From Bosea sp. PAMC 26642 (GTDB taxonomy: Bacteria; Pseudomonadota; Alphaproteobacteria; Rhizobiales; Beijerinckiaceae): 64,000 bases of DNA. Numbering within the stretch: the stretch's first letter is position 1; every line of letters starts with the position of its first letter. Position numbers and translations under genes: made by a program. The DNA lies in contig NZ_CP014301.1 in assembly GCF_001562255.1 (NCBI RefSeq), positions 4,061,501-4,125,500 on the forward strand. Reading direction: 5' to 3'. The notes below the pieces were generated by a model. That model was not told the origin of the DNA. It saw only the letters and a program-made list of their open reading frames with translations, and made no database searches. Positions 35,299 through 39,881 of this stretch are shown here, piece by piece.

Positions 35299-35781
35299 TC
35301 AATGAGTGGCATGCACCCCGTCGCCGCCCTTGGCGCCGATGCCCTCGACCTTGAACTCGACCTCGACCGGGCCGGCCTTCTCGAAGGTCAGCACGCCCTT
35401 CAGGCGCTCGTCCTGCTTCAGCGGCTGCTGCAGATCCATGAACATGATGTGGAAGCCGCCGGGTTTGAGCTCGACCTTGCCGCCGGCGGGAATGACGAGG
35501 CCGGCATCGAGCGGGCGCATCGTCATGATGCCGTCGGTCGTCGCCATCTCATGGACCTCGATCCGGCCCGAGAAGGCGGCCGAGATCGAGACGAGGCGGT
35601 CGGGCTCCGTTCCGGTGTTCTCGATCGAGAGATAGCCGCCGCCGACCTTGGCGCCCGCCGGCGTGGCCCGCGACCAGGGGTGGCCGATCTTCAGGGAGCC
35701 GGCCTTGTAGTCATGGGCGAAGGAGGCGGCGCTGGTCAGCGTCAGCGCGACGGCGACGATATAATGGAGGGGCTTGTTCAT
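35299..35781 (-). CDS. Periplasmic copper chaperone PCu(A)C
   Basis: A 160-residue exported protein of the PCu(A)C family, which delivers Cu(I) to cytochrome oxidase. The signal peptide is MNKPLHYIVAVALTLTSAAS with FAH at the end. The mature part has the copper ligands in the H-x-M pattern: IEVHEMATTDG, then MTMRPLD, and GGFHIMFMDLQQPLKQ. The ATG at 35781 gives the signal peptide; the frame is open upstream but that region belongs to the DUF2946 gene in another frame. It follows the DUF2946 gene by 115 bases on the same strand, with a stem-loop in between. Confidence 0.92.
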   Translation of the reverse strand: MNKPLHYIVAVALTLTSAASFAHDYKAGSLKIGHPWSRATPAGAKVGGGYLSIENTGTEPDRLVSISAAFSGRIEVHEMATTDGIMTMRPLDAGLVIPAGGKVELKPGGFHIMFMDLQQPLKQDERLKGVLTFEKAGPVEVEFKVEGIGAKGGDGVHATH

Positions 35782-35867
35782 GGAGGGTATCCTGAAACGG
35801 GGATGAAGCGGCCGCGCCTCGGCGGGCCGTGGATGGACCCCAAGCGCCGCACAGAGGTGCGCCAGAG

Positions 35868-35896
35868 GCCCCGAGGAAGGCAGAAAACGTCGGGGC
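35868..35896 (-). promoter_or_regulatory. Hairpin directly after the DUF2946 stop codon
   Basis: GCCCCGA / TCGGGGC forms a perfect 7-base-pair stem with a 15-base loop, beginning at the base after the TGA (35897-35899 reverse strand). It has no U-tract, so it is not an ordinary terminator. Its place matches the stem-loop between cutF and the following gene in the Rhodobacter copper operon. Confidence 0.6.
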
Positions 35897-36274
35897 TCAG
35901 GCGAGCGGCGGCCCGCGCGGTCGCGGCAGGCCGAAGGTGACGCCGATCGACGGCGGCGCAGGCGCGATCGGCGCAAGCGACAGGGCCGAGGCGAACCTGT
36001 GCAAGGCCGGCGCCACCGGGACAGGCGGGATGGCGACCACCGGATTGACCGGGCAGCCCTTGCAGTGCTGCGTGTCGCCAGCGGGCGCCGGCCTGTCGTC
36101 GCCCGGCGCCGTGGCGCCCGAGCAGAGAACCATACCGTCCAAACCGGGCGGCATCGCCAAAGCCGGCGCGGGCAGCAGGCCGGCGGCGAGCACCGCCAGT
36201 GCATAGACCGCCCCCAGCCAGGCTCCGAGGATGGAGCGGCGCAGATCTGCGAGGCAAGGGGCGAAAGCCGGCAT
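35897..36274 (-). CDS. DUF2946 family protein, possible CutF-like copper sensor
   Basis: A 125-residue exported or membrane-anchored small protein. It begins MPAFAPCLADLRRSILGAWL with a hydrophobic segment to about residue 43, then DGMVLCSGATAPGDDRPAPA, QHCKGCPVNP and a proline-rich end (PAPPSIGVTFGLPRPRGPPL, then a final Ala). In Rhodobacter capsulatus the small DUF2946 protein CutF has Cys residues and a C-terminal Pro-rich motif and controls translation of downstream copper genes. The same architecture and a downstream PCu(A)C gene are seen here. The start could also be 36316; further upstream the frame crosses a repeat. Confidence 0.75.
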   Translation of the reverse strand: MPAFAPCLADLRRSILGAWLGAVYALAVLAAGLLPAPALAMPPGLDGMVLCSGATAPGDDRPAPAGDTQHCKGCPVNPVVAIPPVPVAPALHRFASALSLAPIAPAPPSIGVTFGLPRPRGPPLA

Positions 36275-36330
36275 GAGCGCGACATGCCTCCGGGCCGGCC
36301 CGGCGTCAAGCCGCATGCTGTCGCAGCGCG

Positions 36331-36412
36331 CCGTCATTGCGAGCGCAGCGAAGCAATCCAGAGCCGCGTGCTCTACGCCTCCTGGATTGCTTCGCTGCGC
36401 TCGCAATGACGG
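36331..36412. repeat. Dispersed palindromic repeat, family A, copy 2
   Basis: CCGTCATTGCGAGCGCAGCG through the mirrored TCGCAATGACGG. It separates the copper unit (minus strand) from the methionine unit (plus strand). The 394-base gap 36275-36668 holds this repeat, then a promoter and the SAM-II riboswitch. Confidence 0.9.
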
Positions 36413-36520
36413 CAGGTCGAAGTCAAGGGCCGCTGGTATCAGGGGAAGATTTTGCTCCCACATCGCCGGCCACAGGAGAGTTCACGCGTCGCGAGCCGTT
36501 TCTTTAAAAGAACGATTGGA

Positions 36521-36549
36521 TTGACAAAGCGGATGGATCGTCCCATCTT
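36521..36549 (+). promoter_or_regulatory. Promoter of the methionine-uptake operon
   Basis: TTGACA (36521-36526), a 17-base spacer and CATCTT (36544-36549). The -35 is perfect and the -10 is weak. It lies 27 bases upstream of the SAM-II aptamer. Confidence 0.5.
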
Positions 36550-36575
36550 GAGGTCGTCATCGGGCTTGCCGGATG

Positions 36576-36630
36576 GCCGCGGGGATTTGAGCGAGCAGCT
36601 TGCACCGCGTCACCAAACGCTAAAGCGCCA
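36576..36630 (+). ncRNA. SAM-II riboswitch
   Basis: A SAM-II (SAM-alpha) aptamer, which senses S-adenosylmethionine in alphaproteobacteria. The P1 stem CGCGG (36578-36582) pairs with CCGCG (36605-36609), GGATTTGAG follows P1, CTTGCA precedes the second strand, and the pseudoknot tail is CACCAAACGCTAAAGCG. These are the conserved elements in the right order and spacing. It lies 39 bases before a leader peptide and about 620 bases before metN, as expected for methionine uptake repressed by SAM. Confidence 0.88.
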
Positions 36631-36668
36631 CGACGCGGTCGTGGGCTCCGGTTTTAAGGAGAATGCAC

Positions 36669-36728
36669 ATGACCATCCGCCCCGTTCGCCGAAACGAACA
36701 CCTTGCCATGGATTGCTGTCGACGCTGA
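36669..36728 (+). CDS. Leader peptide with Cys-Cys-Arg-Arg end
   Basis: A 19-codon open frame with a perfect AAGGAG site 7 bases upstream encodes MTIRPVRRNEHLAMDCCRR and stops at TGA. The arrangement (RR-x-x-HL...CC-RR at the end) resembles sulfur-responsive leader peptides that stall at cysteine codons (TGC TGT here). It is followed 8 bases after the stop by a stable hairpin. An ATG at 36663 is in frame but too close to the Shine-Dalgarno. Existence as a translated peptide is likely; its sensing role is inference. Confidence 0.65.
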   Translation: MTIRPVRRNEHLAMDCCRR

Positions 36729-36736
36729 TCCCGTGC

Positions 36737-36757
36737 CGGTCGGCGCAACGCCGGCCG
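36737..36757 (+). promoter_or_regulatory. Hairpin after the leader peptide
   Basis: CGGTCGGCG / CGCCGGCCG pair over nine positions (one G-U) around a CAA loop. It has no T-run, so it would affect translation or act in a Rho-type mechanism rather than as an intrinsic terminator. Confidence 0.5.
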
Positions 36758-36811
36758 CCCCCGCTCCATCAGATGTCCATCAGAGGCCGCCCCGGCGGCA
36801 GAGGCAGAGCC

Positions 36812-37054
36812 ATGACCCTTGTCCAATCGACTCCCCAGCAGACCGTCCCGAGCCAGCAGGCCTATGTCATCGAGATCGGCGAGACCCAGGCCGGGCTCGT
36901 CAACCGCCGCGCCGACGAGCGCTATTTCACCTTCATCGCCGCTTCCGCCGCGTTCCACGCGCTGGAGGGCCACCGCTTCGCCACGCCAAGCGCAGCCGAA
37001 CTCGCCGTGCGCCAACTGGCCGGCCCGCGTCGCGGCGCGCGGCTGGCAGCCTGA
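36812..37054 (+). CDS. Small protein of unknown function in the met operon (80 aa)
   Basis: An 80-residue soluble protein I do not recognise. It begins MTLVQSTPQQTVPSQQAYVI and contains EIGETQAGLVNRRADERYFT and FIAASAAFHALEGHRF; it lacks a signal peptide, membrane helix or Cys. A GAGG-type site precedes the ATG. It lies between the SAM-II leader and metN, 12 bases before another small gene. High GC at third positions supports it as coding. Function may relate to sulfur or methionine regulation, but only by position. Confidence 0.65.
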   Translation: MTLVQSTPQQTVPSQQAYVIEIGETQAGLVNRRADERYFTFIAASAAFHALEGHRFATPSAAELAVRQLAGPRRGARLAA

Positions 37055-37066
37055 CGGGCGCCGGTG

Positions 37067-37246
37067 ATGAGTATCGTGGTCGATCTCTGGCGGCAGTTCA
37101 CGGCGTGGTTCGCCGAGGCCGTCCCGGCCGTGGCCGGGCCCGTGCCGGCTTCCGGCGAACCCGACGAGGCACGCCGGCAATCGACCCGCGACGTGACGCT
37201 GGAACAGCTGGGCATCGACCACTGGTCGTCCCACACGCTATTCTGA
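37067..37246 (+). CDS. Small protein of unknown function in the met operon (59 aa)
   Basis: A 59-residue protein beginning MSIVVDLWRQFTAWFAEAVP and ending TLEQLGIDHWSSHTLF. It has an amphipathic N-terminal helix and no recognised motif. It begins 12 bases after the previous small gene and ends 4 bases before metN, so it is almost certainly co-translated with them. A GTG at 37064 is an alternative start. Confidence 0.6.
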   Translation: MSIVVDLWRQFTAWFAEAVPAVAGPVPASGEPDEARRQSTRDVTLEQLGIDHWSSHTLF

Positions 37247-37250
37247 GGGC

Positions 37251-38375
37251 ATGATGAACGCACCCGTAAAGCCCGGCGTCTTCGACACCGGCATCGAACT
37301 CCCTTTGGCCAAGTTGTCGTCGGACGCGCCGCCGATCATCCGCTTCGAGCAGGTCGGCAAGACCTATGCCGGCCGCAGCGGGCAGGACGGCGTCTCCGCG
37401 CTCGCCGGCATCGACCTCGACGTGCCCCAAGGCGCGATCGTCGGCGTGATCGGCCGCTCCGGCGCCGGCAAATCGACGCTGATCCGGCTCGTCAACGGGC
37501 TGGAGCGCGCCACCGCCGGCCGCATCCTGATCGAAGGCGAGGACGTCACCGGGCTGACCGAGGCCGGCTGGCGCGCCCGCCGGCGCCAGACGGGGATGAT
37601 CTTCCAGCATTTCAACCTGCTCTCCTCGCGCACGGTCTTCGACAATGTCGCGCTGCCGCTGGAGATCGCGGGCGTGGACAAGGCGCAGATCGAGGCGCGG
37701 GTCGCCAAGCTGCTCGACCTCGTCGGGCTCGCCGACAAGCGCGAGCGCTATCCCGCCGAACTGTCGGGCGGGCAGAAGCAGCGCGTCGGCATCGCCCGGG
37801 CGCTCGCCACCGAGCCGACCGTGCTGCTCTGCGACGAGGCGACCTCGGCGCTCGATCCCGAGACGACGCAGTCGATCCTGGCGCTGCTGCGGCAGGTGAA
37901 CCGGGATCTCGGCATCACCATCCTGCTGATCACCCACGAGATTCCGGTGATCAAGGAGATCTGCGACCGCGTCGCCGTGATCGAGGGCGGGCGGATCGTC
38001 GAGGAGGGCGAGACCTTCGAGGTGTTCACGCGCCCGAAGCATCCGACCACCGCCCGCTTCGTCGAGGCCGTGACCGGCGTCGAGGTGCCGGCCTATCTCG
38101 CAGGGCAGATCCGGCAGGAGGCCCGCGCGGGCGACCAGGCCGTGCTGCGCATCACCTTCACGGGCGAGAATTCGACCGCCCCGGTGATCAGCCGGCTGAG
38201 CTCGACCATCGGGATCGACGTCAACATTCTGGCGGGGCGCATCGACGCCATCGCCGGTCGCCCCTTCGGCAGCCTGCTCGTCTCGGTGCCGTCGGAACAA
38301 CCAAAACTCGCCGCCGTGCTCGGTGCCCTGAAGAGCCTCGCACTCAAGGCGGAGGTCGTCGGCCATGTCTCCTGA
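37251..38375 (+). CDS. metN: Methionine ABC transporter ATP-binding protein
   Basis: MetN powers D/L-methionine import. The 374-residue product has Walker A GRSGAGKSTLIRLVNGLERA, Q-loop MIFQHFNLLSSRTVFDNVAL (the MetN-typical form), signature LSGGQKQRVGIARAL, Walker B VLLCDEATSALDPETT, and a C-terminal NIL/ACT-like domain from about residue 290 (RITFTGENSTAPVISRL) that senses methionine. It overlaps metI by 11 bases. The operon lies under a SAM-II riboswitch, which supports methionine rather than another substrate. Confidence 0.95.
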   Translation: MMNAPVKPGVFDTGIELPLAKLSSDAPPIIRFEQVGKTYAGRSGQDGVSALAGIDLDVPQGAIVGVIGRSGAGKSTLIRLVNGLERATAGRILIEGEDVTGLTEAGWRARRRQTGMIFQHFNLLSSRTVFDNVALPLEIAGVDKAQIEARVAKLLDLVGLADKRERYPAELSGGQKQRVGIARALATEPTVLLCDEATSALDPETTQSILALLRQVNRDLGITILLITHEIPVIKEICDRVAVIEGGRIVEEGETFEVFTRPKHPTTARFVEAVTGVEVPAYLAGQIRQEARAGDQAVLRITFTGENSTAPVISRLSSTIGIDVNILAGRIDAIAGRPFGSLLVSVPSEQPKLAAVLGALKSLALKAEVVGHVS

Positions 38376-39030
38376 AATCATCCGCCTGATCGCGCAGGCC
38401 ACCGGCGACACGCTGCTGATGGTGGCGGTGGCCGCGGGGCTGGGCAGCGTGCTCGGCCTGCCGCTCGGCGTCTTCCTCGCCACCAGCAAGCGCGGCGAGC
38501 TGTTTGCGTCGCCGGCTCTCAACGCCGTGCTCGGCACGCTGGTCAACGCGACGCGCTCGACGCCCTTCATCATCCTCGTCGTCGCAATCATCCCCTTCAC
38601 CCGGCTGATCGCCGGCACCTCGATCGGCACCAATGCGGCAATCGTGCCGCTGACGGTCGCCTCCACCCCGTTCATCGCCCGCCTGATCGAAGGGGCGATC
38701 CGCGAGGTCGACCAGGGGCTGGTGGAGGCGGCGCGCGCGATGGGGGCAAGCCCGCTCCAGATCGTGCGCAAGGTGCTGGTGCCCGAGGCGCTGCCGGCGA
38801 TCGTGCTGGGCCTGACACTGGCCATCGTCAGCCTGCTCGGTTTCTCGGCCATGGTCGGCGCGGTCGGCGGCGGGGGGCTGGGCGATCTCGGCATCCGCTA
38901 CGGCTACCAGCGCTTCATGCCCGATGTGATGGCCGCCGTCGTCGCCGTGCTGATCGTCCTCGTCCAGACCGTCCAGAGCGTCGGCGACCGCTTGGCGCGC
39001 CGCCTCAACAAGCGGCTGCGCCACGCCTGA
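38365..39030 (+). CDS. metI: Methionine ABC transporter permease
   Basis: MetI forms the dimeric inner-membrane channel. The 221-residue product has five membrane segments and MetI features: VNATRSTPFIILVVAIIPFT, GTNAAIVPLTVASTPFIARL, and the EAA loop EVDQGLVEAARAMGASPLQI followed by VRKVLVPEALPAIV, then YQRFMPDVM. It is translationally coupled to metN and followed 50 bases later by metQ. Confidence 0.95.
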   Translation: MSPEIIRLIAQATGDTLLMVAVAAGLGSVLGLPLGVFLATSKRGELFASPALNAVLGTLVNATRSTPFIILVVAIIPFTRLIAGTSIGTNAAIVPLTVASTPFIARLIEGAIREVDQGLVEAARAMGASPLQIVRKVLVPEALPAIVLGLTLAIVSLLGFSAMVGAVGGGGLGDLGIRYGYQRFMPDVMAAVVAVLIVLVQTVQSVGDRLARRLNKRLRHA

Positions 39031-39080: not shown

Positions 39081-39881
39081 ATGACCACCCTCACCCGCCG
39101 CGCGGCGCTTGCCGCCACCGCCGTATTCGCCCTGAGCCTGGCCGTCCCCGCTCTCGCCCAAACCACGCAGGTCGTTCGCATCGGCGCCTCGCCCGGCCCC
39201 CATGCCGAGATCCTGGAGAAGCTGAAGCCGATCGTCGCCAAGCAGGGCATCGACCTCAAGATCGTCGAGTTCTCGGACTATGTCGTGCCCAATCAGGCGC
39301 TCGACGCCGGCGAGCTGGAGGCCAATTCCTTCCAGAACCAGCCCTATCTCGACAACCAGATCAAGGATCGCGGCTACAAGCTGGTCGGCGTCGGCTACAC
39401 CGTGAACTTCCCGCTTGGCATCTATTCGGCCAAGTACAAGAGTTGGGCCGAGGTGCCCGACGGCGCATCGGTCGCGATCCAGAACGACCCGACCAATGGC
39501 GGGCGTTCGCTCCTGCTGCTGCAGGACAAGGGCATCATCAAGCTCAAGGACGGCGTCGGCTTCAAGCCCACCCCAGCCGACATCGTCTCGAACCCCAAGA
39601 AGCTGAAGATCATCGAGATCGAGGCGGCCCAGACCCCGCGTTCGCTGCAGGACGTGGCGGCGGCCGCGATCAACACAAACTACGCCGTCGACGCCAAGAT
39701 CGAGCCGACCTCGGCGATCCTGCGCGAGGACCCCAAGGGGCCCTATGTCAACCTGATCGCGGTGCGCGCCGCCGACAAGGACAAGCCCTGGGTGAAGACG
39801 CTGGTCGAGGCCTATCACTCGCCCGAGATCAAGGCTTTCGTGGCCGAGCGCTTCAAGGGCTCGGTGCTCGCGAGCTGGTAA
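39081..39881 (+). CDS. metQ: Methionine ABC transporter substrate-binding protein
   Basis: MetQ captures methionine in the periplasm. The 266-residue NlpA-family product has a signal peptide (MTTLTRRAALAATAVFALSL ending ALAQ; no lipobox Cys is seen, so it is likely soluble) followed by VVRIGASPGPHAEILEKLKP, IVEFSDYVVPNQALDAGELE, ANSFQNQPYLDNQIKDRGYK and the ligand-binding QNDPTNGGRSLLLLQ. A GAAGGATACGACCCG site precedes the ATG. It is the last gene of the operon, followed by a terminator. Confidence 0.95.
   Translation: MTTLTRRAALAATAVFALSLAVPALAQTTQVVRIGASPGPHAEILEKLKPIVAKQGIDLKIVEFSDYVVPNQALDAGELEANSFQNQPYLDNQIKDRGYKLVGVGYTVNFPLGIYSAKYKSWAEVPDGASVAIQNDPTNGGRSLLLLQDKGIIKLKDGVGFKPTPADIVSNPKKLKIIEIEAAQTPRSLQDVAAAAINTNYAVDAKIEPTSAILREDPKGPYVNLIAVRAADKDKPWVKTLVEAYHSPEIKAFVAERFKGSVLASW

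Follow-up and report, generated by a model that had tools for sequence, protein, structure and literature searches.

Riboswitches and leader-peptide attenuators have mostly been studied separately. SAM-II riboswitches (RF00521) upstream of metA and metZ in S. meliloti act directly on the gene or on a terminator, according to the portions of the reports available (PMC1273637, PMC9373788). Short frames with cysteine codons form a second type of sulfur-related leader. Those of mycobacteria, treated by Canestrari et al. in 2020, are reportedly leaderless, going by the title of that study. The cys leaders of actinobacteria carry Cys runs near the stop codon ahead of sulfur operons, with no conserved terminator, and the accessible part of their description makes no mention of an aptamer (PMC1262725). 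A first-pass annotation of the DNA analysed here had placed such leaders in actinobacteria, which is correct, but tandem-Cys frames also occur in Alphaproteobacteria: uORFC-8-2 of Rhodobacterales, with its Cys pair usually at positions 14-15, is found only before cysS, ends in a U run, uses UGC predominantly, and is described without mention of a riboswitch in the available text (PMC8632094). Composite arrangements have been recorded as well. A study on the Clostridium acetobutylicum ubiG operon is said to have both S-box and T-box in its title. The ubiG-mccB-mccA operon of this organism combines a SAM-sensing RNA, present as an antisense SAM riboswitch, with a T-box on one sulfur operon, no leader peptide being named in the part of the source at hand (PMC9943018), and the mgtA leader of Salmonella, in the excerpt available, unites a riboswitch and a leader peptide with amino-acid codons (mgtL), responding to Mg2+ and proline (PMC6460261).

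The leader described here lies in a window of 64,000 nucleotides from Bosea sp. PAMC 26642, and carries the two types of element consecutively (Table 1). It shares with SAM-II the core sequence, the P1 stem, the pseudoknot strand and the downstream sulfur genes, and departs from it by an inserted hairpin P3 that is absent from the Rfam consensus, by a score under the gathering threshold, and by the leader peptide that intervenes between the aptamer and the genes. Like uORFC-8-2 it is a short alphaproteobacterial frame with tandem Cys codons, but the defining features of that family, cysS downstream and a terminal U run, are replaced here by a small gene, S80, with metNIQ and by a leader in which no terminator was found, and UGU is favoured over UGC. 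The Cys codons near the stop, the lack of a conserved terminator and the association with sulfur operons are those of the actinobacterial cys leaders, unlike which it has a Shine-Dalgarno sequence and a SAM-II-type aptamer upstream. The pairing of a riboswitch with a leader peptide recalls mgtA, in other bacteria and with other signals, and the proposed dual sensing on a sulfur operon recalls C. acetobutylicum. Aptamer and Cys leader are thus each known; for the combination, called undescribed in the first-pass annotation, no report was found: none of the titles and abstracts among the matches listed dealt with a Cys leader peptide downstream of a SAM-II element, in a search with most subscription journals outside its reach.

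Table 1. Elements of the metNIQ leader and its operon in the window
Feature	Position	Strand	Basis and remarks
Possible promoter, TTGACA, 17 nt, CATCTT (weak -10)	36521..36549	+	by eye
SAM-II-type aptamer, RF00521 match	36569..36643	+	28.2 bits, E 0.0015; gathering score 36
P1 stem, CGCGG 36578-36582 / CCGCG 36605-36609	36578..36609	+	Rfam alignment and own alignment
Inserted hairpin P3, CCACGAC 36628-36634 / GTCGTGG 36638-36644	36628..36644	+	
GCUCC strand, candidate partner of GAGC 36589-36592 (P2b) or GGAG 36658-36661	36645..36649	+	
Shine-Dalgarno AAGGAG of leader frame	36656..36661	+	sequence
Leader peptide MTIRPVRRNEHLAMDCCRR, 19 codons, ends DCCRR, stop 36726-36728	36669..36728	+	
Possible long-range helix, GACGCUGAU (36721-36729) / AUCAG-A-UGUC (36768-36777)	36721..36777	+	predicted fold of window
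Hairpin A, 9 bp, CGGTCGGCG/CGCCGGCCG, begins 8 nt after leader stop, without T-run	36737..36757	+	
Hairpin B, GCCGC/GCGGC, 5' of ribosome site of next gene	36786..36799	+	predicted fold
S80, first gene, 80 aa, without known family	36812..37054	+	no Pfam/NCBIfam match
60-aa frame between S80 and metN, without significant family	37064..37246	+	
metN	37251..38375	+	TIGR02314 8e-118, 393 bits (under cut-off 500); NIL domain
metI	38365..39030	+	NF008049 above cut-off
metQ	39081..39881	+	TIGR00363 above cut-off; PF03180

A proposed SAM-II subtype ahead of a leader frame

The element annotated at first pass as a clear SAM-II aptamer stands as far as its sequence is concerned, the core GATTTG...GCTTGC...CGCTAAAG being intact and the P1 stem conserved, but its match to RF00521 stays below the Rfam gathering score, as do those of five loci of the same genus (L008-L012, 26.7-29.5 bits). 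A covariance model, R2, was built from 11 aptamers including that of the window, which scores 88.5 bits with it. At most sites, GCUAAAGCG is separated from the 3' pseudoknot strand by a hairpin CCACG(A/G)...(U/C)CGUGG. In 77 distinct sites picked for having this P3 hairpin, the first pair is C-G (69), U-G (5) or U-A (3) and the sixth A-U (52), G-C (11) or G-U (14), with changes on both sides at two of the six pairs. We propose that these aptamers represent a SAM-II subtype which, in the loci scored, falls under the Rfam cut-off. Four further Bosea copies (L177, L199, L212, L222) do without P3, and there a Cys frame starts about 9 nt past the aptamer core.

Covariation was also detected for the P2 pseudoknot, where only 2 of 2000 shuffles of 64 distinct combinations reach the observed pairing if kinship is ignored; the helix has 4-6 bp in Bosea and in a number of other lineages, and is weak in Microvirga-type and Chelatococcus-type loops. 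The strand that follows P3 can alternatively pair with the Shine-Dalgarno sequence of the leader frame, and here too its own partners are beaten or matched by 2 of 2000 shuffles, kinship again being ignored. Since pairing within P2b and pairing with the Shine-Dalgarno sequence are mutually exclusive, the arrangement suggests that SAM binding would open the ribosome site of the leader frame. The opposite direction, with SAM closing this site, may also apply, by analogy with what is proposed for S. meliloti metA in the portion of that study available (PMC9373788).

The 19-codon frame ending in DCCRR behind a Shine-Dalgarno sequence, as first annotated, was recovered in full, as was the 9-bp hairpin that follows its stop codon. 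The frame starts 25 nt past the end of the aptamer match, with its Cys codons at 36714-36716 (TGC) and 36717-36719 (TGT); of two candidate ATGs (36663 and 36669), the spacing to AAGGAG fits the second. A search of NCBIfam with this peptide and those of ten relatives returned no family. The possible promoter is absent from the output of a consensus scan, and TTGACA is also seen by eye 5' of the aptamer in relatives L008-L012. Further upstream, an imperfect inverted repeat around GTCATTGCGAGCGCAGCGAAGCAATCC is visible by eye (36336-36413). A terminator scan of positions 36300-37300 detected no intrinsic terminator, which counts against an attenuator, and hairpin A, having no T-run, was rejected for this role; a hairpin with a T-run follows the frame in a few relatives (L010, L081, L134, by eye). 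A Guanidine-III riboswitch match inside the 60-aa frame (37139-37197, 21.1 bits against a cut-off of 36) is probably due to chance.

Conservation and coding constraint of the Cys end

Comparison with relatives bears directly on the leader frame. A pattern search of named genomes gave 85 stretches, of which 80 were used and 2 lay too near the edge of their locus, leaving 78 variant aptamer sites. A short frame preceded by a Shine-Dalgarno sequence follows at 77 of these sites, with Cys among its last 12 residues at 73, and at 69 it passes a stricter motif rule, namely C followed by C or R, or a terminal RC, within those 12 residues, although sites sharing descent are not independent trials. Random anchors in the same loci (n=4680) led to any such frame in 681 cases, to Cys in the last 12 residues in 187 and to the motif in 57. 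Canonical SAM-II loci, 27 usable ones drawn from the highest scores and not a sample of all SAM-II sites, gave such a frame in 3 cases, and neither Cys in the last 12 residues nor the motif in any. Twenty-five of these 27 loci lead into a gene of 395-404 aa which we take to be metZ from its sequence. Nine named sites failed the rule (L169, L183, L193, L194, L204, L207, L218, L230, L231): the frames of six do contain Cys, and at L169, L204 and L207 inspection by eye showed no frame with Cys.

Because of shared descent, the spread over genera whose N-termini can no longer be aligned weighs more than these totals. The N-terminus drifts, but frames behind the aptamer in Bosea, Chelatococcus, Microvirga, Kaistia, Labrys and Rhodospirillales retain a Cys-Cys or Cys-Arg terminus, so that the leader peptide withstands the comparison with relatives that the first-pass annotation had named as its own refutation. 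The pattern search also matched Prosthecomicrobium, Pseudochelatococcus and Tistlia, and, within Rhodospirillales, Oceanibaculum and Oleisolibacter. In the five same-genus loci L008-L012 the aptamer and Shine-Dalgarno sequence recur, with frames ending GCCCRL, MMCCCR, MMCCCRR (two loci) and ACRCRL. The R2 model matches 192 of 397 genomes of the same family, in 23 of 43 genera (E <= 1e-3), and 70 of 385 genomes of the class, in 47 of 277 genera (E <= 1e-6). From the family matches 60 sites were hand-picked for spread, with organisms partly overlapping those of the 78-site set: 51 pass the motif rule, 54 have Cys in the last 12 residues, and 13 of the 16 genera have one or more passing sites. 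Five loci (L102, L114, L116, L123, L132) fail through a weak Shine-Dalgarno sequence and show a Cys-bearing frame by eye. Automatic choice picked wrong frames in genus g9, taken to be of Methylobacterium type, and in some others, and the frames there were read by eye. Under a rule of one frame per site at 96 sites, 84 of 86 distinct peptides contain Cys and 72 at least two, and Cys makes up 10.6% of their residues versus 3.0% in background frames (n=1538, 739 with Cys and 328 with at least two). Leader length ranges from 7 to over 30 codons.

At the level of the class, 14 of the best-scoring 29 loci besides that of the window (L248-L276) have a Cys-ended frame by eye, and at no fewer than five (L248, L249, L262, L267, L271) the aptamer leads straight into a long gene. 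This split suggests that the leader peptide is one of two outputs of the aptamer subtype. Conversely, S80-type genes at L017 and L030 lack a SAM-II motif and are preceded by frames ending RDRCRS and RDRCRPRA, perhaps Cys leaders without a riboswitch.

The Cys end is constrained at the level of coding, as expected of a Cys leader attenuator. Fifty-nine Bosea-type frames were chosen by ribosome site and length only, and in 51 of them the motif falls within the final seven residues. Between frames less than 25% diverged (88 pairs), the last five codons (1320 nt) show 31, 2 and 40 changes at positions 1, 2 and 3, and the remaining codons (4512 nt) 236, 283 and 204. A set of 53 frames chosen by the motif, which could bias such counts, agrees with the set chosen regardless of the motif (33/2/38 in the last five codons, 230/286/202 elsewhere). 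Cys codon comparisons within the 53 frames comprise 205 unchanged, 19 exchanges between TGC and TGT, 42 exchanges with Arg (29 CGC/TGC and 13 CGC/TGT) and 4 others. Arg is kept together with Cys at the frame end, and Cys supply need not be the sole signal.

This behaviour of Arg lends some weight to a different explanation, in which the CC-R-R end stalls the ribosome by itself or binds copper or zinc, the signal not being Cys-tRNA; the two residues do swap, and CruR, a copper-responsive frame with a Cys motif, offers a precedent in the part of its description available (PMC9426467). We regard this as unlikely. The Cys codons are mostly located 3-5 codons before the stop, where the residues would still be inside the exit tunnel when read, whereas the CXXC of CruR precedes its RAPP arrest motif by 45 residues, going by the same partial source (PMC9426467); moreover, frame length varies, and the genes downstream are mostly sulfur genes.

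Codon choice raises a second alternative. Cys is encoded by TGT 100 times and by TGC 60 times in the 59 Bosea-type frames, compared with 7:97 in 39 genes of the window and 5:127 in 102 genes flanking Bosea loci, and TGT serves as the final Cys codon in 98 of 114 motif-chosen frames, mostly followed by CG. The preference would fit either slow decoding or RNA pairing, and the conserved UGUCG might itself function at the RNA level, by binding a protein or by pairing, for which the region before the next gene is a predicted partner, with the frame incidental. That the last five codons are almost fixed at second positions but vary at third ones, that a Shine-Dalgarno sequence and short frame accompany 77 of the 78 aptamers, and that the ends MCCGCCCC, MCTGCR and SCRRSCCC keep Cys with different nucleotides, all speak for a peptide, and make an RNA-only role quite unlikely.

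A probable two-input attenuator and its output

We consider it likely, on the evidence of the sequence comparisons above, that the leader of metNIQ acts as a sulfur attenuator with two inputs, gated by SAM and responsive to cysteine. The conserved Cys end behind the aptamer favours this two-layer control, already put forward at first pass, as the best reading of the locus. The aptamer with P3 at the 5' end would set whether the ribosome site of the leader frame is open, and the frame would serve as cysteine sensor, its N-terminal part being a spacer. A ribosome short of Cys-tRNA would stall at UGC-UGU near the stop codon. Such a stall would change how the Cys/Arg codons pair with sequence ahead of the next gene, and would thereby raise expression of S80 and metNIQ. 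One leader would in this way probably check both SAM and cysteine before sulfur-uptake genes are switched on. Binding of SAM, ribosome stalling, the sign of the SAM response and the type of output, translational or by transcription termination, are inferences.

Several analyses bear on the last step. RNAalifold applied to three chosen Bosea sub-groups (11, 12 and 10 sequences) places the Cys/Arg codons in pairs with sequence before or at the S80 ribosome site, with covariation terms close to zero (0.46, -0.12 and 0.26), which counts against the attenuator. In the long-range pairing, a leader's own partner is better than swapped ones in 57 of 86 cases overall, with the reverse in 13 of 18 smaller clusters, and better than shuffled partners in 63 of 86; the largest cluster (58, Bosea) gives -27.8 for own and -24.8 for swapped partners. 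Simulated access to the S80 ribosome site in 47 leaders rises from 0.350 in free RNA to 0.399 with a ribosome near the start, 0.418 with one stalled at Cys and 0.427 with one at the stop. Stalled and terminating ribosomes were not told apart by the simulation, access with a stalled ribosome exceeding that of free RNA in 33 of 47 leaders and that with a ribosome at the stop in 25 of 47. An element resembling hairpin B is seen by eye at the same place in many of these leaders. That SAM-II merely controls translation of the small frame, to which the operon is translationally coupled with Cys content no signal, is very improbable: the aptamer subtype does open directly onto long genes in other lineages (the five class loci named above), but the 62-102 nt between leader stop and next gene in the 47 leaders would be long for simple coupling, and Cys enrichment would be left without explanation.

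It is tempting to extend the two-input attenuator to a hierarchical arrangement, which we hold only tentatively, at somewhat short of even chances. Here the riboswitch would gate a second sensor, SAM-dependent folding deciding whether the Cys leader is translated at all, as an RNA logic gate on the end product (SAM) and the entry metabolite (cysteine). The regulon under this control would cover the import of methionine, the use of sulfonates and the assimilation of sulfate across many Alphaproteobacteria, and the rare UGU codon would be tuned for sensitivity. Such leaders offer a natural system in which to study the integration of two signals from one pathway by a single RNA.

Sulfur genes downstream and further copies

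The first-pass annotation named metNIQ as the target; these genes do follow the leader, but the first gene is the small S80, not metN. Downstream genes at other sites were scored by tblastn with the proteins of the window, longest-frame calls being dropped as they were swamped by opposite-strand frames. Methionine-transporter genes lie within 4.5 kb of 50 of 83 sites and an S80-type gene was found at 47 of 83; neither was found at 24 of 83, partly because the locus ends. The first gene is S80 in Bosea and of MetQ type in several Microvirga and Chelatococcus loci, and among other loci an FMN reductase is found downstream at L200, a luciferase-type monooxygenase at L219, and a rhodanese with a sulfur transporter at L224. 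At many sites, then, a short frame with a Shine-Dalgarno sequence and near-stop Cys codons precedes sulfur genes, the layout that characterises a Cys leader attenuator.

In the genome of strain PAMC 26642 itself, R2 detects three more sites at E < 1e-4. One has a GTG frame ending in STRC, followed by genes for a paralogue of S80, a protein resembling SsuA and a flavin reductase, and another a GTG frame ending in SRC, followed by CysH, CysD, CysN and a sulfite reductase, the names CysD and CysN resting on domains and gene order. The SAM-II site C1:5207905, before an SsuA-like gene, is an exception: the sole frame there is of 56 aa, overlaps the next gene and has one internal Cys. The arrangement spans Bosea relatives to Rhodospirillales and recurs at three sulfur operons within a single genome. 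We propose a cysteine-sensing regulon for alphaproteobacterial sulfur acquisition.

The S80 family (positions 36812-37054 in the window; L277, downstream of C1:1090487) is small and often heads sulfur operons after such a leader. It has 187 homologues at E <= 0.001, the close ones named as Bosea, and was matched in 48 of 149 genomes of the same family. Its predicted structure (mean pLDDT 80.7) comprises three strands and two helices, and comparison with the PDB gave no significant match, the best being YkuJ (E 0.71), for which a model in complex with NusA exists in the PDB. On the minus strand of the window, positions 35302-36463 hold a gene for a copper chaperone of the PCu(A)C type (PF04314, 4e-39) and, to its 5' side, a 188-aa frame, without Pfam match at E 0.01, in which a CXXC motif (CKGC) and an end, RGPPLA, resembling the RAPP motif of CruR can be recognised by eye.
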